Part shown: piece by piece, positions 2,200 through 13,312 of the stretch | How the letters are laid out: each line of letters starts with the position of its first letter | Position numbering within the stretch: position 1 is the stretch's first letter | Assembly (NCBI GenBank): GCA_011390635.1 | Contig: JAABSA010000035.1 | Span: 1 to 38,175, forward strand | Direction: 5' to 3' | Origin: Desulfotignum sp. | GTDB lineage: Bacteria; Desulfobacterota; Desulfobacteria; Desulfobacterales; Desulfobacteraceae | Length of the DNA stretch: 38,175 nucleotides | Translations under genes and position numbers: made by a program | Notes under the pieces: model-generated | What the model was told of the DNA's origin: nothing | The model's database searches: none | What the model saw: the letters and a program-made list of their open reading frames with translations, nothing else

Positions 2200-2313
2200 C
2201 TATTCAGATGCAGGCAAGGCAATGCTGTTTTCCTGTGGATTCCGGACCTGTGCCTGGTGGTTTCGGCGGAACAAAAGATCCATTCCTGCCCGTACCGGCG
2301 TATCAAAAGACCC

Positions 2314-2727
2314 GTGCCGGGGGGTCCCTGCGGGTCTCACCCTCTGCCGCGTTTGACATGGCGTAGGGCATGGCTGCGCTGAACGGCAAAAACTGCGGGC
2401 AGGTGTGTCCTCAGACAGTTTGCCGTTCTTACCGCTCCGCCATGCCCAACTCCATGTAACAACCGCGTCAGAATGGGATTCAACCCACAGGGACCCCCCG
2501 GCACTAGCCGCTGATGGCAGAGGTGAGCGGAGGTGAAGTCCCGGGCCTGGTTCCTCCTTACACAGGGGAACCTGAAAAGAGGAGTGGAACCGGAAATCAC
2601 TTGTACAACGAAAACCCTGAATAGAGAAGCGGGGGGGACAAAAATGATTCGCACAGCGTTACCCCCACCAGGGGCGGCATCCTGCCGATCAGTCTGAATC
2701 ACCCGGTAATTCAAATCAGAAACCGGG
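2314..2727. ncRNA. Candidate large structured RNA of unknown family
   Basis: This GC-rich stretch between two minus-strand genes holds nested complementary arms. A perfect 17-bp outer stem joins 2314-2330 to 2488-2504. Inside it a long hairpin pairs 2366-2374 with 2439-2447 (9 bp), 2381-2390 with 2419-2428 (10 bp) and 2393-2395 with 2416-2418. Further hairpins follow: 2549-2558 with 2580-2591 (10 bp, 2-nt bulge), a G-run 2631-2637 against C-run 2662-2666, 2675-2679 with 2683-2687, and 2702-2707 with 2722-2727. No convincing gene overlaps it; the only long frame (2337-2741, minus) has no recognisable protein features. The TTGTACAACGAAA segment at 2601-2613 (plus) is loosely reminiscent of group II intron domain I, but no domain V or reverse transcriptase is visible. 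The transcribed strand is unknown. Confidence 0.45.
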
Positions 2728-2759
2728 GAGTAAAGCACCAATACCCGACGGCTGACTGC

Positions 2760-4592
2760 TTATACTCTCAATCCCTGGACCAGGGGCAGTTTTATGGTGA
2801 ACCGGGTCCACTCACCGTATTGTGACTCCACGGTGATATCTCCGTCATGGTCCTTGATGAAGCCATAACAGACCGACAACCCCAGGCCGACCCCCTTGAT
2901 ACTGTCGGTCTTGGTGGTGAAAAAGGAGTCGAACACTTTTTTGAGATACTCGGGTTTGATGCCTGTGCCGGTGTCTTCCACAACAATATGCAGCATCTTT
3001 CCATTGGGTTTTGTGGTGATTGTCAGGTTGCCGCCGTCAGGCATGGCATACATGGCATTGGAAAACATGTTGATGAACACCTGGCGCAGCTGGTCCCTGG
3101 ATGCCATGATCCGGCCCGGGTTTCGGGCAAGCTCCAGAATCAGTTTGATGCTGTTTTCCCGGAAACGTTTTTCATACAGGACCATGAGTTCTTCAATGAC
3201 CGCATTGATATCGAGTTCGGAACGTTCCACCTCATCGGGCTTTGAAAAAGAGAGCATTTTTTTGAGCATGTCCGCCAGGCGGATGGTTTCAGACAGAGAC
3301 ATGTCCAGCAGTTTTCGCCGCTTGTTGGTGGGGGGGATCTCGGTTTTCATCAGCTCAAGGGTATTCATGATGCCGAACAACGGATTGTTCAGTTCATGGG
3401 CGATCTGGGAGGTAAGCCGTCCCATGGCAGCCAGTTTTTCCGACTGCAGCAGGTGCTGCCGGGCATCGGACAATTCCCGCTCGGTTTTAAGCAGTTCCCG
3501 CAGATCCACAAAAAGAGCTACAGTGGCTGTTTCCCTGCCTTTTTCATCATAGAGAAACGAAGCAGACAGGTTGCCTTCCACCACCTGGCCGTCCCTGCGT
3601 TCAAACCTAAGGGGATAGGAATTGAGCTTGCCCACTCCCCCGTATTTTGGATCCCGCATCATCTGTGTGACTTCCGCCGCCACCTCTTTGGAATAAATCT
3701 GCTGGACCGTCATACGTCCCACCACTTCCTCGGCAGGCAGCCCGAACACCTCCTCGGCTCCCTGGTTCCAGAGGATAATTTTGCCGGTCATGTCCATGGA
3801 CATAATGGCATTGGGCGAACAGGAGATGATATTGTCCAGAAAATCATGGGCTTCCTTGAGCTTGTTTTCGCTCTTTTTACGTTCGGTGACATCCACCACA
3901 ATGCCTTCATAACCCAGAATCTGACCCTTGTCATCATACCGTACATTGGACGTCAACAAAATATGGATAACATGACCGTCCCTGCGCCGCCATTTCAGCT
4001 CATAATCCACCACCCGGCCTTTTTTTTCTATCACCTTCTGGTATTTTTCCCGGTCTTCCGGGGTAAGGTACACATCCCGGGCCAGATCCAAGGACAAAAA
4101 TTCATCCTTATCCTGATATCCCAGGATTTTGAGCAATGTGGGATTTACATCCAGAAACCGTCCCTGTTTGCTGGAAATAAACACCCCGCACCCCACATGC
4201 GTGAACAGGCGCTGGTAACTTTCCCTGGAAGACTTGAGCTTGGCTGCCTGTACTTTGCGCCGGGTAATATCCCTGTAAATGGAAAGCTTGGACCGGGTGC
4301 CGTCCCGGTTGGTCACCGGTATTTCCGACAAGGCAAAGGTTTTTCCCACCGATTCCAGAAAAATCTCAGAATGGCGGGTCTCATTTTGTTCAAATATTTC
4401 CCTGTAATTGCACCATTCACAAGGTTTGTCATACCCCAGCAGCACCTTGTGACATTTTTCACCAATCCCTTCTCCGAACAGATTCTTCATGAACCGGTTC
4501 ATGTACTCCACCGTAAAATCCTCGCTGACAATATAGATGCCGTCTTCAAACGCATCCAAAGCATCCAGCAGCTTAGGGGTATGGTCGTTCAT
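2760..4592 (-). CDS. Three-PAS sensor histidine kinase
   Basis: This 610-residue soluble kinase has PAS domains at about 8-112, 122-240 and 248-366, then a HisKA dimerisation helix with phospho-acceptor H399 (IAHELNNPLF). A HATPase_c domain follows with N512, the DTGTGI G1 box (540-545) and GVGLGLSV G2 box (567-574). There are no transmembrane segments, so it senses a cytoplasmic signal. The first PAS carries C47, C58 and C61 (CHK...PCEWC), a cysteine pattern that may bind a metal, Fe-S centre or respond to redox. No receiver domain is attached; the HTH-REC protein encoded downstream on the same strand is a possible partner. A TATAAT-like -10 lies about 40 bp upstream. Domain architecture is clear; ligand and target are unknown. 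Confidence 0.9.
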   Translation of the reverse strand: MNDHTPKLLDALDAFEDGIYIVSEDFTVEYMNRFMKNLFGEGIGEKCHKVLLGYDKPCEWCNYREIFEQNETRHSEIFLESVGKTFALSEIPVTNRDGTRSKLSIYRDITRRKVQAAKLKSSRESYQRLFTHVGCGVFISSKQGRFLDVNPTLLKILGYQDKDEFLSLDLARDVYLTPEDREKYQKVIEKKGRVVDYELKWRRRDGHVIHILLTSNVRYDDKGQILGYEGIVVDVTERKKSENKLKEAHDFLDNIISCSPNAIMSMDMTGKIILWNQGAEEVFGLPAEEVVGRMTVQQIYSKEVAAEVTQMMRDPKYGGVGKLNSYPLRFERRDGQVVEGNLSASFLYDEKGRETATVALFVDLRELLKTERELSDARQHLLQSEKLAAMGRLTSQIAHELNNPLFGIMNTLELMKTEIPPTNKRRKLLDMSLSETIRLADMLKKMLSFSKPDEVERSELDINAVIEELMVLYEKRFRENSIKLILELARNPGRIMASRDQLRQVFINMFSNAMYAMPDGGNLTITTKPNGKMLHIVVEDTGTGIKPEYLKKVFDSFFTTKTDSIKGVGLGLSVCYGFIKDHDGDITVESQYGEWTRFTIKLPLVQGLRV

Positions 4593-10951: not shown

Positions 10952-13312
10952 TCAGCCTCCTTTTGCGGGAAAATCATTGTTTGGTGAATCTGCAAGCCTG
11001 GCCCCGGCCACCACCACCTGGCCCAGGGAAATGCCCCCGTCACCCGAAGGCACACAGGTATGGGTATACACCGCCAGGCCCTTTTGTTCCAGTGCCTGGA
11101 TCATGCGGGTCAGGATATACTCATTGTGAAACACCCCGCCGGACAACACCACCTTGTCAAGGCCCGTCGTTCCGGCAATCTTTTCTGCTGCCCGGACAAA
11201 TGCAGCCACAATGGTCTGGTGAAACCGTCTGCTGATGCGCGGTGCCGGCACCTGTGTTTTAATTTCTGCCACAATGTCCAGGACACAGGGCATCATGTCA
11301 ATGATAAACGCGGGTTCAGCGGTTTCATCCAAGGGCTCGGGCTGCCGGTCCAGACAAAAGGCATAAGGCGCCACCGTTTCTTTGCCGAAATCCTGTGCTG
11401 CCACTGTCTCCAGTTCCATGGCAGCCTGGCTTTCATGGGAGATGACATGGCAAATGCACAGCAAAGAGGACACTGCATCAAACAGCCGGCCGCAGCTGGA
11501 TGTCATTGGCGTGTTGATCTGTTTTTCCATCATCTGACAGATAAATGCCAGTTTTTCTTTATCCCTCTGCCGGATAAAAGGAATGTCCAGGTCCAGAAAA
11601 GATCTGCCCATGGCTGTATACAAAACAGAGGCAGCCATGCGCCAGGGTTCCAGAACAGCGGCATCCCCTCCGGGCATGGGCACATAGCCCAGATGGGCCT
11701 TGCGCAGGAAGGTTTTTTGTGTGGCAGCCAGGATTTCCCCGCCCCAGATATGGCCGTCAGTCCCGTACCCGGTGCCGTCCAGGGTGATGGCGATCACCGG
11801 CCCGTCCAGATGGTTTTCCGCCATGCAGGACACGGCGTGGGCATGGTGATGCTGCACCGCCACCAGGGGGATACCGGCTGCGGCAGCATAGGCTGTGCTC
11901 ATATATCCGGGATGCAGATCATGGGCCGCCGCCTGTGGTGCAGCATCCAGAATTTTGGTAAAATGGGCGATGGTGTGGGTATAAAATGCATAGGTTCTGT
12001 CATTTTCCAGGTCCCCGATATGCTGGCTTACAAAGGCCTGGCTGCCCCGGGTCAGGCAGATGGTGCTTTTCAGACCTGCCCCGCATCCAAGCACAGAAGG
12101 CAGAGGGGCTGCCAGCTGAATCGGCAGCGGGGCATATCCCCGGGAACGACGGACAAACCGGGTCTTTTCTGCCTGGATCCGGACAATGGAATCATCCGCC
12201 CGAAAATAAATATCGCGGTTGTGCAGGAGAAAAAAGTCCGCAATATGGGAAAATGCATCCAGGGCATCCTGGTTGTCAATGGACAAAGGCTCCCCGGACC
12301 GGTTTCCCGATGTCATCACCAGGATATCGGGTCCGTGTTCCAAAAGCAGACAATGCAAAGGGGTATAGGCAAGCATGATGCCAAGGCAGGTGTTGCAGGG
12401 TGCCAGGGCCGGAGAAAGTCCGGCACAAAGTCCATCTGCTTTTTTCTCTGCCAGGACAATGGGCCGGTGATAACACTGGAGCAGCTCTTTTTCATCATCG
12501 GATAATTGCACATGGTCCAGCAGCACAGCCACAGATCCGGCCATGAGGGCAAAGGGTTTGCTGGGGCGGTGTTTTCGCTGCCGCAGCAAACGGACTGCCC
12601 GGTCATTGGCGGCATCAGCAGCCAGATGAAACCCGCCCAGCCCTTTGATTGCCAGGATTTGGCCTGTTTTGAGCAGGTCTGCAGCCATGGCAATGGCATT
12701 GTCAGCCCCGGCCATCTGTCTGCCCTGGTTGTCCGTTAAAAACACCCTGGGACCGCATTCCGGACAGGCATTGGGCTGGGCATGAAACCTGCGGTTTGCG
12801 GGATCTTCGTATTCGGCCCGGCAGTTTGCACACATGACAAAGTCCTTCATGGAGGTTTTGGGCCGGTCATAGGGGATATCATTGATGATGGTGAATCTGG
12901 GGCCGCAATTGGTGCAGTTGATGAACGGATATGCATGCCGCCGGTTTTCGGGATCATGCATTTCCGCCAGGCAGTCGCTGCACACACACACATCCGGTGA
13001 TATCAGGGTGGCCCGGCTGCGGGATGCACGGCTGGGGATGATGTGAAAGTCTGTAAACCCTGTGACTGGTATCCGGGTAGTCTGAACCCGGTCCACCCGG
13101 GCCAGAGGCGGCGGTGTCCCTGTGATGTCCGACACAAACCGATCCAGGCTGCAAGCGGGACCTTCCACCCGGGCCAGGACTCCGCCGGCGGCATTGGAAA
13201 CCTCTCCTTTTATGCAATACTTTTGTGCAAGGGCGAACAAAAAGGGCCTGAAACCAACGCCCTGGACGACGCCGCTGATATCAAGCTGTTTTGCGATGCA
13301 GGGCGAATTCAT
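10952..13312 (-). CDS. hypF: Hydrogenase maturation carbamoyltransferase HypF
   Basis: HypF activates carbamoyl phosphate to carbamoyl-AMP and passes the carbamoyl group to HypE. All domains are visible in the 786 residues. An acylphosphatase-like N-terminus (VQGVGFRP, 16-23) comes first. A double zinc finger follows with CxxC pairs at C111/C114, C133/C136, C161/C164 and C183/C186. Then come a YrdC-like domain (about 200-390) and a Kae1-like carbamoyltransferase domain containing the HHHAHAVSCMAEN motif. Its ATG overlaps the hypC stop by four bases (ATGA), implying translational coupling. Full length and intact. Confidence 0.97.
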   Translation of the reverse strand: MNSPCIAKQLDISGVVQGVGFRPFLFALAQKYCIKGEVSNAAGGVLARVEGPACSLDRFVSDITGTPPPLARVDRVQTTRIPVTGFTDFHIIPSRASRSRATLISPDVCVCSDCLAEMHDPENRRHAYPFINCTNCGPRFTIINDIPYDRPKTSMKDFVMCANCRAEYEDPANRRFHAQPNACPECGPRVFLTDNQGRQMAGADNAIAMAADLLKTGQILAIKGLGGFHLAADAANDRAVRLLRQRKHRPSKPFALMAGSVAVLLDHVQLSDDEKELLQCYHRPIVLAEKKADGLCAGLSPALAPCNTCLGIMLAYTPLHCLLLEHGPDILVMTSGNRSGEPLSIDNQDALDAFSHIADFFLLHNRDIYFRADDSIVRIQAEKTRFVRRSRGYAPLPIQLAAPLPSVLGCGAGLKSTICLTRGSQAFVSQHIGDLENDRTYAFYTHTIAHFTKILDAAPQAAAHDLHPGYMSTAYAAAAGIPLVAVQHHHAHAVSCMAENHLDGPVIAITLDGTGYGTDGHIWGGEILAATQKTFLRKAHLGYVPMPGGDAAVLEPWRMAASVLYTAMGRSFLDLDIPFIRQRDKEKLAFICQMMEKQINTPMTSSCGRLFDAVSSLLCICHVISHESQAAMELETVAAQDFGKETVAPYAFCLDRQPEPLDETAEPAFIIDMMPCVLDIVAEIKTQVPAPRISRRFHQTIVAAFVRAAEKIAGTTGLDKVVLSGGVFHNEYILTRMIQALEQKGLAVYTHTCVPSGDGGISLGQVVVAGARLADSPNNDFPAKGG

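Follow-up and report, generated by a model that had tools for sequence, protein, structure and literature searches.

The Spacer and Its Features

The window, i.e., the whole stretch of 38,175 nucleotides analysed here, comes from a Desulfotignum sp. contig. Near its left end two minus-strand genes border a spacer: a protein with HTH and receiver domains at 1526-2098 and a PAS/HisKA/HATPase kinase at 2760-4592, both recognised by Pfam as the initial annotation had named them. Three of the open reading frames that touch the spacer (134, 111 and 54 aa) gave no Pfam match at E 0.01, in agreement with the earlier view that it holds no credible gene. The following features were delineated, with the strand where one is assigned.

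2310..2507, minus (probable folded strand): module A hairpin repeat (own-genome copies, alignment A1, covariation, strand polarity)
2314..2335, no strand: 5' arm of the outer stem (inverted-repeat search; helices 1 and 2)
2483..2504, no strand: 3' arm of the outer stem (inverted-repeat search; covariation)
2356..2390, no strand: 5' side of the inner stems, ACATGGCGTAGGGCATGGCTGCGCTGAACGGCAAA (inverted-repeat search; helices 4 to 6)
2418..2457, no strand: 3' side of the inner stems (inverted-repeat search; covariation)
2391..2417, minus: conserved tip, or head (pattern shared across Desulfobacterales; core alignment A2)
2508..2659, no strand: variable linker between both hairpin modules (length and sequence differ among copies)
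2660..2688 (about), no strand: remnant 3' arm of module B, TACCCCCACCAGGGGCGGCATCCTGCCGA (second dispersed hairpin repeat)
2208..2755 (approximate), no strand: sequence present here and missing from the orthologous spacer of relatives (locus comparison; ends placed by eye, uncertain by some tens of bases)

On the plus strand module A reads ACCCGTG...CACTAG, and its tip reads AACTGCGGGCAGGTGTGTCCTCAGACA, corresponding to TGTCTGAGG...CCGCAGTT on the strand that we infer to be folded. The perfect 17-bp outer stem reported initially was recovered as the core of 22-nt arms (2314-2335 and 2483-2504) that are 95% complementary, and the inverted-repeat search also returned the arms of the second, enclosed hairpin (2356-2379 with 2434-2457, and 2381-2390 with 2419-2428). 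Further hairpins had been described up to position 2727. The structure is present, but the sharp-ended repeat unit covers 2310-2507, and the hairpins past 2508 are part of the variable linker or of the module B 3' arm.

The linker contains a short hairpin (CCGCTGATGGCAGAGG) and the word TTGTACAACG, which had been likened to domain I of group II introns. The motif TTGYACARCR was found at most 400 nt downstream of 18 of 64 module A copies and upstream of none of them; TTGTACAACG is part of this recurrent linker and is not evidence of an intron domain. In 22 of the 64 copies a signature of module B follows downstream. Module B itself (GGAGCCCC...GGGGCGGC) appears to be a second dispersed hairpin family, seen for example at L025:1835-1940, with apparent compensatory variation when inspected by eye.

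Folding and Covariation

The plus strand of segment 2300-2760 folded at -216.2 kcal/mol, compared with -163.1 +/- 6.1 kcal/mol for 100 shuffled sequences (z -8.7); none of the 100 shuffles reached this energy, which bears out the initial judgement that such nested stems are improbable by chance. The reverse strand gave a z of -7.8 against shuffles.

Across the whole window no Rfam family reached its curated threshold. Up to E 10, the spacer matched three microRNAs, one snoRNA and one Nitrosomonas sRNA, the best at E 0.45 and all far below threshold. Models of group II introns and of HEARO were absent both at the Rfam thresholds and among these matches, and ARAGORN found no tRNA or tmRNA-like structure in the window and in 12 loci.

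Covariation on the stems, which had been proposed as a check, was measured in two alignments. Alignment A1 comprises 68 copies, 66 of them from Desulfotignum, with the window copy as its first row; five rows (L032, L036, L060, L090 and L091) were trimmed manually on the right, back to the first CACT[AG], and 63 were left untouched. Double changes were present at 36 of its 55 pairs and 96.5% of the cells pair. The covariation score was 0.238, compared with 0.063 after shuffling and 0.026-0.050 with slid partners. The pair cells consist of 3,511 Watson-Crick pairs, 19 GT, 72 AC outside one constant pair, and 71 others. Alignment A2 holds 43 diverse cores from several genera (46 representatives minus L207 and L208, apparently broken by insertions, and one L064 row). 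Here covariation was seen at 16 of 19 pairs with a score of 0.518 against 0.169 for shuffled columns, and the number of further pair types was equalled by 54 of 500 shuffles. When all column pairs were ranked by APC-corrected mutual information, exact stem pairs made up nine of the top ten among 21,321 in A1 and eight of the top ten among 3,916 in A2. The structure of module A is under constraint, or at minimum it is maintained as complementary. Template-switch correction of quasi-palindromes can give compensatory change without selection.

Copy Number and Distribution

In its own genome, a BLASTN search with the spacer located parts of 2308-2572 in seven further places, and the apical covariance model R2 found at least eight copies of module A. 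The BLASTN search for homologues suggested in the initial annotation gave matches in all 12 congeners, 3 to 27 in each, palindromic self-matches being counted in. Sixty-five near-full copies were collected, about 194-198 nt long, starting with ACCCGT (63 exactly) and ending with CACT[AGC]. Their flanks are mostly unlike each other, bar a few common insertion sites and short common words. The window feature is thus a high-copy interspersed hairpin rather than a single-locus structured RNA: of the new structured RNA first suggested, the covarying stems and the lack of an Rfam family at threshold hold, and the single locus gives way to a dispersed repeat.

The full-length covariance model R1, built almost wholly from Desulfotignum copies, had hits in 72 of the 241 genomes examined from the class, spread over 28 of its 110 genera, and R2 matched 63 of 242 genomes of the order. 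Copies per genome are lower bounds, 10 (R1) or 18 (R2) candidates being scored in each. A scan of public contigs with the tip pattern returned at least 112 stretches. The 80 listed records belong to Desulfotignum, Desulfobacula, other Desulfobacteraceae and Desulfobacterales, Desulfarculaceae, a few unplaced proteobacteria and one record labelled Marinimicrobia (L147), which is perhaps misbinned. In the genomes G220 and G127, 14 of 20 stretches around copies were interrupted by a contig end.

BLAST of the window element against phages and plasmids gave no match, and the type I head pattern was not found in viral contigs; a phage or plasmid origin was discarded on these two results. Nothing was found either with a 66-nt hairpin of another class against plasmids and phages, with the MITE form against plasmids, or with the stretches L408 and L412 against phages. 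Against plasmids, L412 gave four matches of 36-43 bases, all off the hairpin.

Presence, Absence and Ends of the Element

Nine of the 12 congeners carry both genes flanking the window's spacer on one contig, and the element is missing in all nine. In G001 the conserved flanks are just 4 nt apart. The letters were seen in seven of these congeners; G010 and G012 (opposite strand) were judged by the gap only, of about 150 and 70 nt, respectively. The strict type I head pattern occurred in 0 of the 9 readable congener loci. At other sites some hairpins have been deleted with part of one arm left behind (scars L361, L362 and L364-L366). Since such deletions leave scars, some absences at those sites are losses, and absence is not always ancestral. 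The scars are useful in themselves for the mutational behaviour of long palindromes.

Copies in G246, G250, G160, G127 and G220 form palindromes of about 191 bp (190-193 bp), many with TGATGNNNTCGTAAAAAGTC-like ends and their complement. The full-length model R1 (1-196) aligned end to end with one of them, G250:C40:11551-11736, whose terminal inverted repeat (TIR) starts at 11550. In these other families near-identical copies are flanked by target duplications. Among the 14 head-bearing elements that fit the TGATGNNNTCGTAAAAAGTC end pattern and have both flanks present, nine have the same 4 bp on both sides, within a 6-bp duplication of the form ANNNNT; the 4-bp test was passed by 100 of 5000 mispaired flanks. 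In the Desulfotignum/Desulfobacula form a target duplication was seen in 1 of 73 elements of normal length, against 27 of 3000 in the control (L188, a mispairing with negative length, was left out of 74). As no target duplication is seen above this background, mobility of the Desulfotignum form rests on presence/absence and on copy number. The ends differ by lineage, ACCCGT...CACTRG in one case and TGATGNNNTCGTAAAAAGTC in the other. Of the characters by which MITEs are recognised, a short, non-coding, dispersed and multicopy element and terminal inverted repeats were found. In G246, the TIR TGATGNNNTCGTAAAAAG (157 sites) bounds several different small elements of 50, 60, 91, 163 and 191 bp, some of them tipless.

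The Conserved Tip and Its Strand

On the probable folded strand the tip reads CTGTTTGA-[stem-loop]-GAGTT, with slight variation, and it is constant while the stems change across genera. Two types were distinguished on the plus strand, AACTSCGG..C..GT..GTCCTC..ACA and AACTCGG....CCTCAAACA. Part of this constancy stems from searching with the tip pattern; yet R2 recovered the second type, although this type falls outside the search pattern. We consider it possible that the tip forms a kink-turn.

Mismatches inside the helices are unevenly distributed. With a wobble-blind arm aligner, 132 A.C and 51 G.T were counted in 74 clustered representatives of 175 elements, and 265 A.C and 137 G.T in all 175. 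The ratio 132:51 corresponds to a p of about 2e-9 under independence, the representatives being only partly independent. The A1 count, with one pair set aside, goes in the same direction (72 A.C, 19 G.T). Since an A.C mismatch becomes G.T when the opposite strand is read, the folded strand is probably the one reading CTGTTTGA, the minus strand of the window. Against this assignment, 67 of the 68 A1 rows have one tip pair as G.T on the plus strand, which makes it A.C on the minus strand and slightly lowers our confidence in the overall reading, and the A2 table is without strand bias (16 G.T and 13 A.C cells). A folded reading of the minus strand nevertheless appears likely, because the tip is fixed on free stems and wobbles are tolerated mainly there.

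Two kinds of interruption were observed in the hairpins. In one Desulfotignum genome (G006), several module A copies (L131, L144, L168, L235 and L237-L239, at contig ends) are interrupted at one site of the tip, TCCTCAAACAG|ATAATATGAGAAGG... and ...AGCCTTCTCATGGA|AGTTTGCC. The interrupting sequence has the look of an insertion sequence that carries subterminal inverted repeats and targets the tip, and it may resemble the IS1111-type elements, which target attC or REP hairpins. Some Desulfobacula-type hairpins (L123, L126, L134, L143 and L152) have the short word ACCTGAAGGTCACACG, or one close to it, inserted in one arm or the other, which looks as though the word could itself move.

Beyond the order, the tip is carried by hairpins from other classes and from IMG/VR contigs. 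The pattern CTGTTTGAGN{6,18}GAGTT matched 152 of 395 genomes of the phylum, a tally that includes many chance matches and is meaningful only for genomes far above the reversed-pattern control. Such an excess was observed in G033, of the same order (42 matches, 0 for the control), and outside the order in G570 (201 and 3), G604 (21 and 0) and G471 (17 and 3). Of 20 phylum loci opened, eight had flanks complementary at 7 or more of 8 bases, compared with 24 of 475 when flanks were mispaired; several of the remaining loci sit in genes and are due to chance. In IMG/VR, 12 stretches contained CTGTTTGAGCGNAGCGAGTT. In all 12 it sits on a stem whose flanks are complementary at 7 or more of 8 bases, a level reached by 51 of 461 mispaired combinations, and four (L410, L412, L414 and L416) possess the second internal loop of the Desulfobacterales elements, GCGTTAA(G)...TTTAGC. 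In a Pasteurella multocida record, a hairpin that by eye seems related but differs in its tip lies between dapF and a DUF484 gene.

Gene Context and the Search for a Mobilising Enzyme

For the 135 intergenic heads of all families (20 of 155 heads lie within ORFs and were dropped), the upstream gene was in the same orientation in 62 cases and opposite in 56, and the downstream gene in 61 and 64, respectively. When the count was restricted to the 65 Desulfotignum copies, one side showed a 38:21 skew in gene orientation. A cis-regulatory leader was rejected on the near-even orientation over all families, despite this skew; the same evenness and the nine congeners whose spacer lacks the element make it unlikely that the regulatory RNA considered earlier has a role specific to the present promoter.

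Around the copies, ORF clusters were shared by 7 of 80 loci at most. The largest, nine ORFs in 7 of 80 loci, resembles by eye the sensor kinase of the window, which is of a paralogue type that is common, and a cassette with a common neighbour gene was rejected on this count. Y1 (HUH) transposases handle hairpin repeats. The Y1 family PF01797 was present in 12 of 14 genomes, and in 10 of the 14 the frame is open over 220 aa or more; two copy-rich drafts, G010 and G127, gave no Y1 match. In 30 opened loci, out of 35 PF01797 matches, no head was found within up to 1.5 kb, and comparison of these loci with the modules gave only matches of 14-27 nt, at chance level. Two pairs of TIRs lie 0.8-1.1 kb apart, and no transposase was recognised among the ORFs of the longer pair, viewed by eye. 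A mobilising gene was found neither among the opened Y1 loci nor among the ORF clusters.

Interpretation and Alternatives

The superfamily has dispersed copies, is present or absent at an orthologous site, and has covarying stems, with TIRs and target duplications in the other families. We propose that the window copy is probably a non-autonomous, hairpin-forming, MITE-like mobile repeat belonging to a superfamily widespread in Desulfobacterales, the folded strand of which is recognised. Since it has no visible coding sequence, the element would be moved in trans. At some step the minus strand of the window would be read in folded form, the putative reader most likely being a transposition or processing protein and its substrate either extruded single-stranded DNA or a read-through transcript. 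The conserved tip suggests that some cell factor recognises the folded strand. A wider proposal, which we make tentatively, is that CTGTTTGA-[variable stem-loop]-GAGTT, which occurs throughout Desulfobacterota and on hairpins in apparently unrelated contigs, may be a hitherto undescribed motif for recognition. It would be read as folded single-stranded nucleic acid by a machinery that spreads hairpins of otherwise unrelated stems and ends.

The covariation could have a purely mutational origin. Quasi-palindrome correction during replication would keep the arms of an ordinary MITE complementary, and the stems would covary without structural selection. The very small number of wobbles of both kinds in A1 (19 GT, 72 AC) and the palindrome deletions observed would be expected in that case; the explanation leaves unaccounted for a fixed tip on free stems over many genera and the 132:51 strand bias, and we regard it as doubtful as an alternative to a recognised MITE-like repeat. 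The same tip and the strand polarity would also suit a REP-like element of a Y1 (HUH) tyrosine transposase, of RAYT or TIRYT type, reading hairpins on one DNA strand, as would the lack of target duplication in the Desulfotignum form and the frequency of PF01797 (12 of 14 genomes, long frames in 10 of 14). The HUH chemistry does not fit target duplications, so that those of the TIR forms speak against such an enzyme; moreover heads adjoin none of the 30 Y1 loci, module matches there are at chance level, and copy-rich G010 and G127 (drafts) are without a Y1 match. An origin of this kind is therefore unlikely.

A third possibility places the function in RNA: a multi-copy family of non-coding or regulatory RNAs, for which the minus strand would be transcribed and which would act in cis or in trans. 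It would account for the strong covariation in A1 and A2, the conserved unpaired residues, the strand polarity of the wobbles and the 38:21 skew in Desulfotignum. It is distinctly improbable, given the near-even orientation to genes over all families, the spacer empty of the element in nine congeners (the locus is not conserved), the target duplications beside near-identical copies in other families, copy flanks that differ beyond short common words, and the lack of an Rfam match at threshold. A truncated group II intron or an omega-type guide RNA, both put forward initially, must be considered extremely improbable: the resemblance of the word TTGTACAACG speaks for them, while no such model appears at the Rfam thresholds or among the five matches up to E 10, and ORF clusters next to the copies reach 7 of 80 loci at most. 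We therefore retain a MITE-like repeat, recognised on its folded strand, as the probable nature of module A.

No paper on the present repeat was found by our searches of the open-licence PMC literature, one of them made with sequence letters and several judged by the titles listed. A passage on D. phosphitoxidans reports 120 transposable elements and contains neither the term MITE nor the word intergenic (PMC4046663). Long interspersed hairpins seem to have been little studied. The fixed tip on drifting stems leads to a clear, testable prediction, a protein that binds the tip on one strand. If true, the proposal would define a system, for transposition or for RNA processing, in which structure and not sequence is recognised, and it would explain a class of repeats that breaks assemblies.

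Comparison with Known Systems

With group II introns and HEARO the element shares a long helical RNA in a spacer, and differs from them in having no covariance-model match. REP and REPIN sequences too are intergenic hairpins, possibly read on one strand, and long Y1 proteins are encoded in 10 of 14 genomes. REP/RAYT repeats flank their Y1 gene, whereas the present element adjoins none of 30 Y1 loci. The REP unit is given as 20-40 bp in the relevant passage of PMC3733652, as opposed to 194-198 nt here. A REP sequence bears a GTAG or CGTC tag at one of its ends; those of module A read ACCCGT...CACT[AGC]. Y1 genes flanked by atypical structures or by long TIRs, with copies in the genome, are described in parts of PMC6006769 and PMC3733652; they may be regarded as the nearest precedent for a hairpin-reading enzyme, and not as evidence of membership. 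The MITEs NEMIS, RUP, ERIC, Bcr1 and Nezha, as presented in a section of PMC3733652, resemble module A in being gene-free, 70-300 bp long, bordered by TIRs, dispersed and robustly folded, and MITEs share target duplications with the TIR forms of the present superfamily. Unlike them, the present element keeps an internal tip fixed across genera while TIRs and stems differ, and it combines this tip with a strand-biased wobble and lineage-specific ends.
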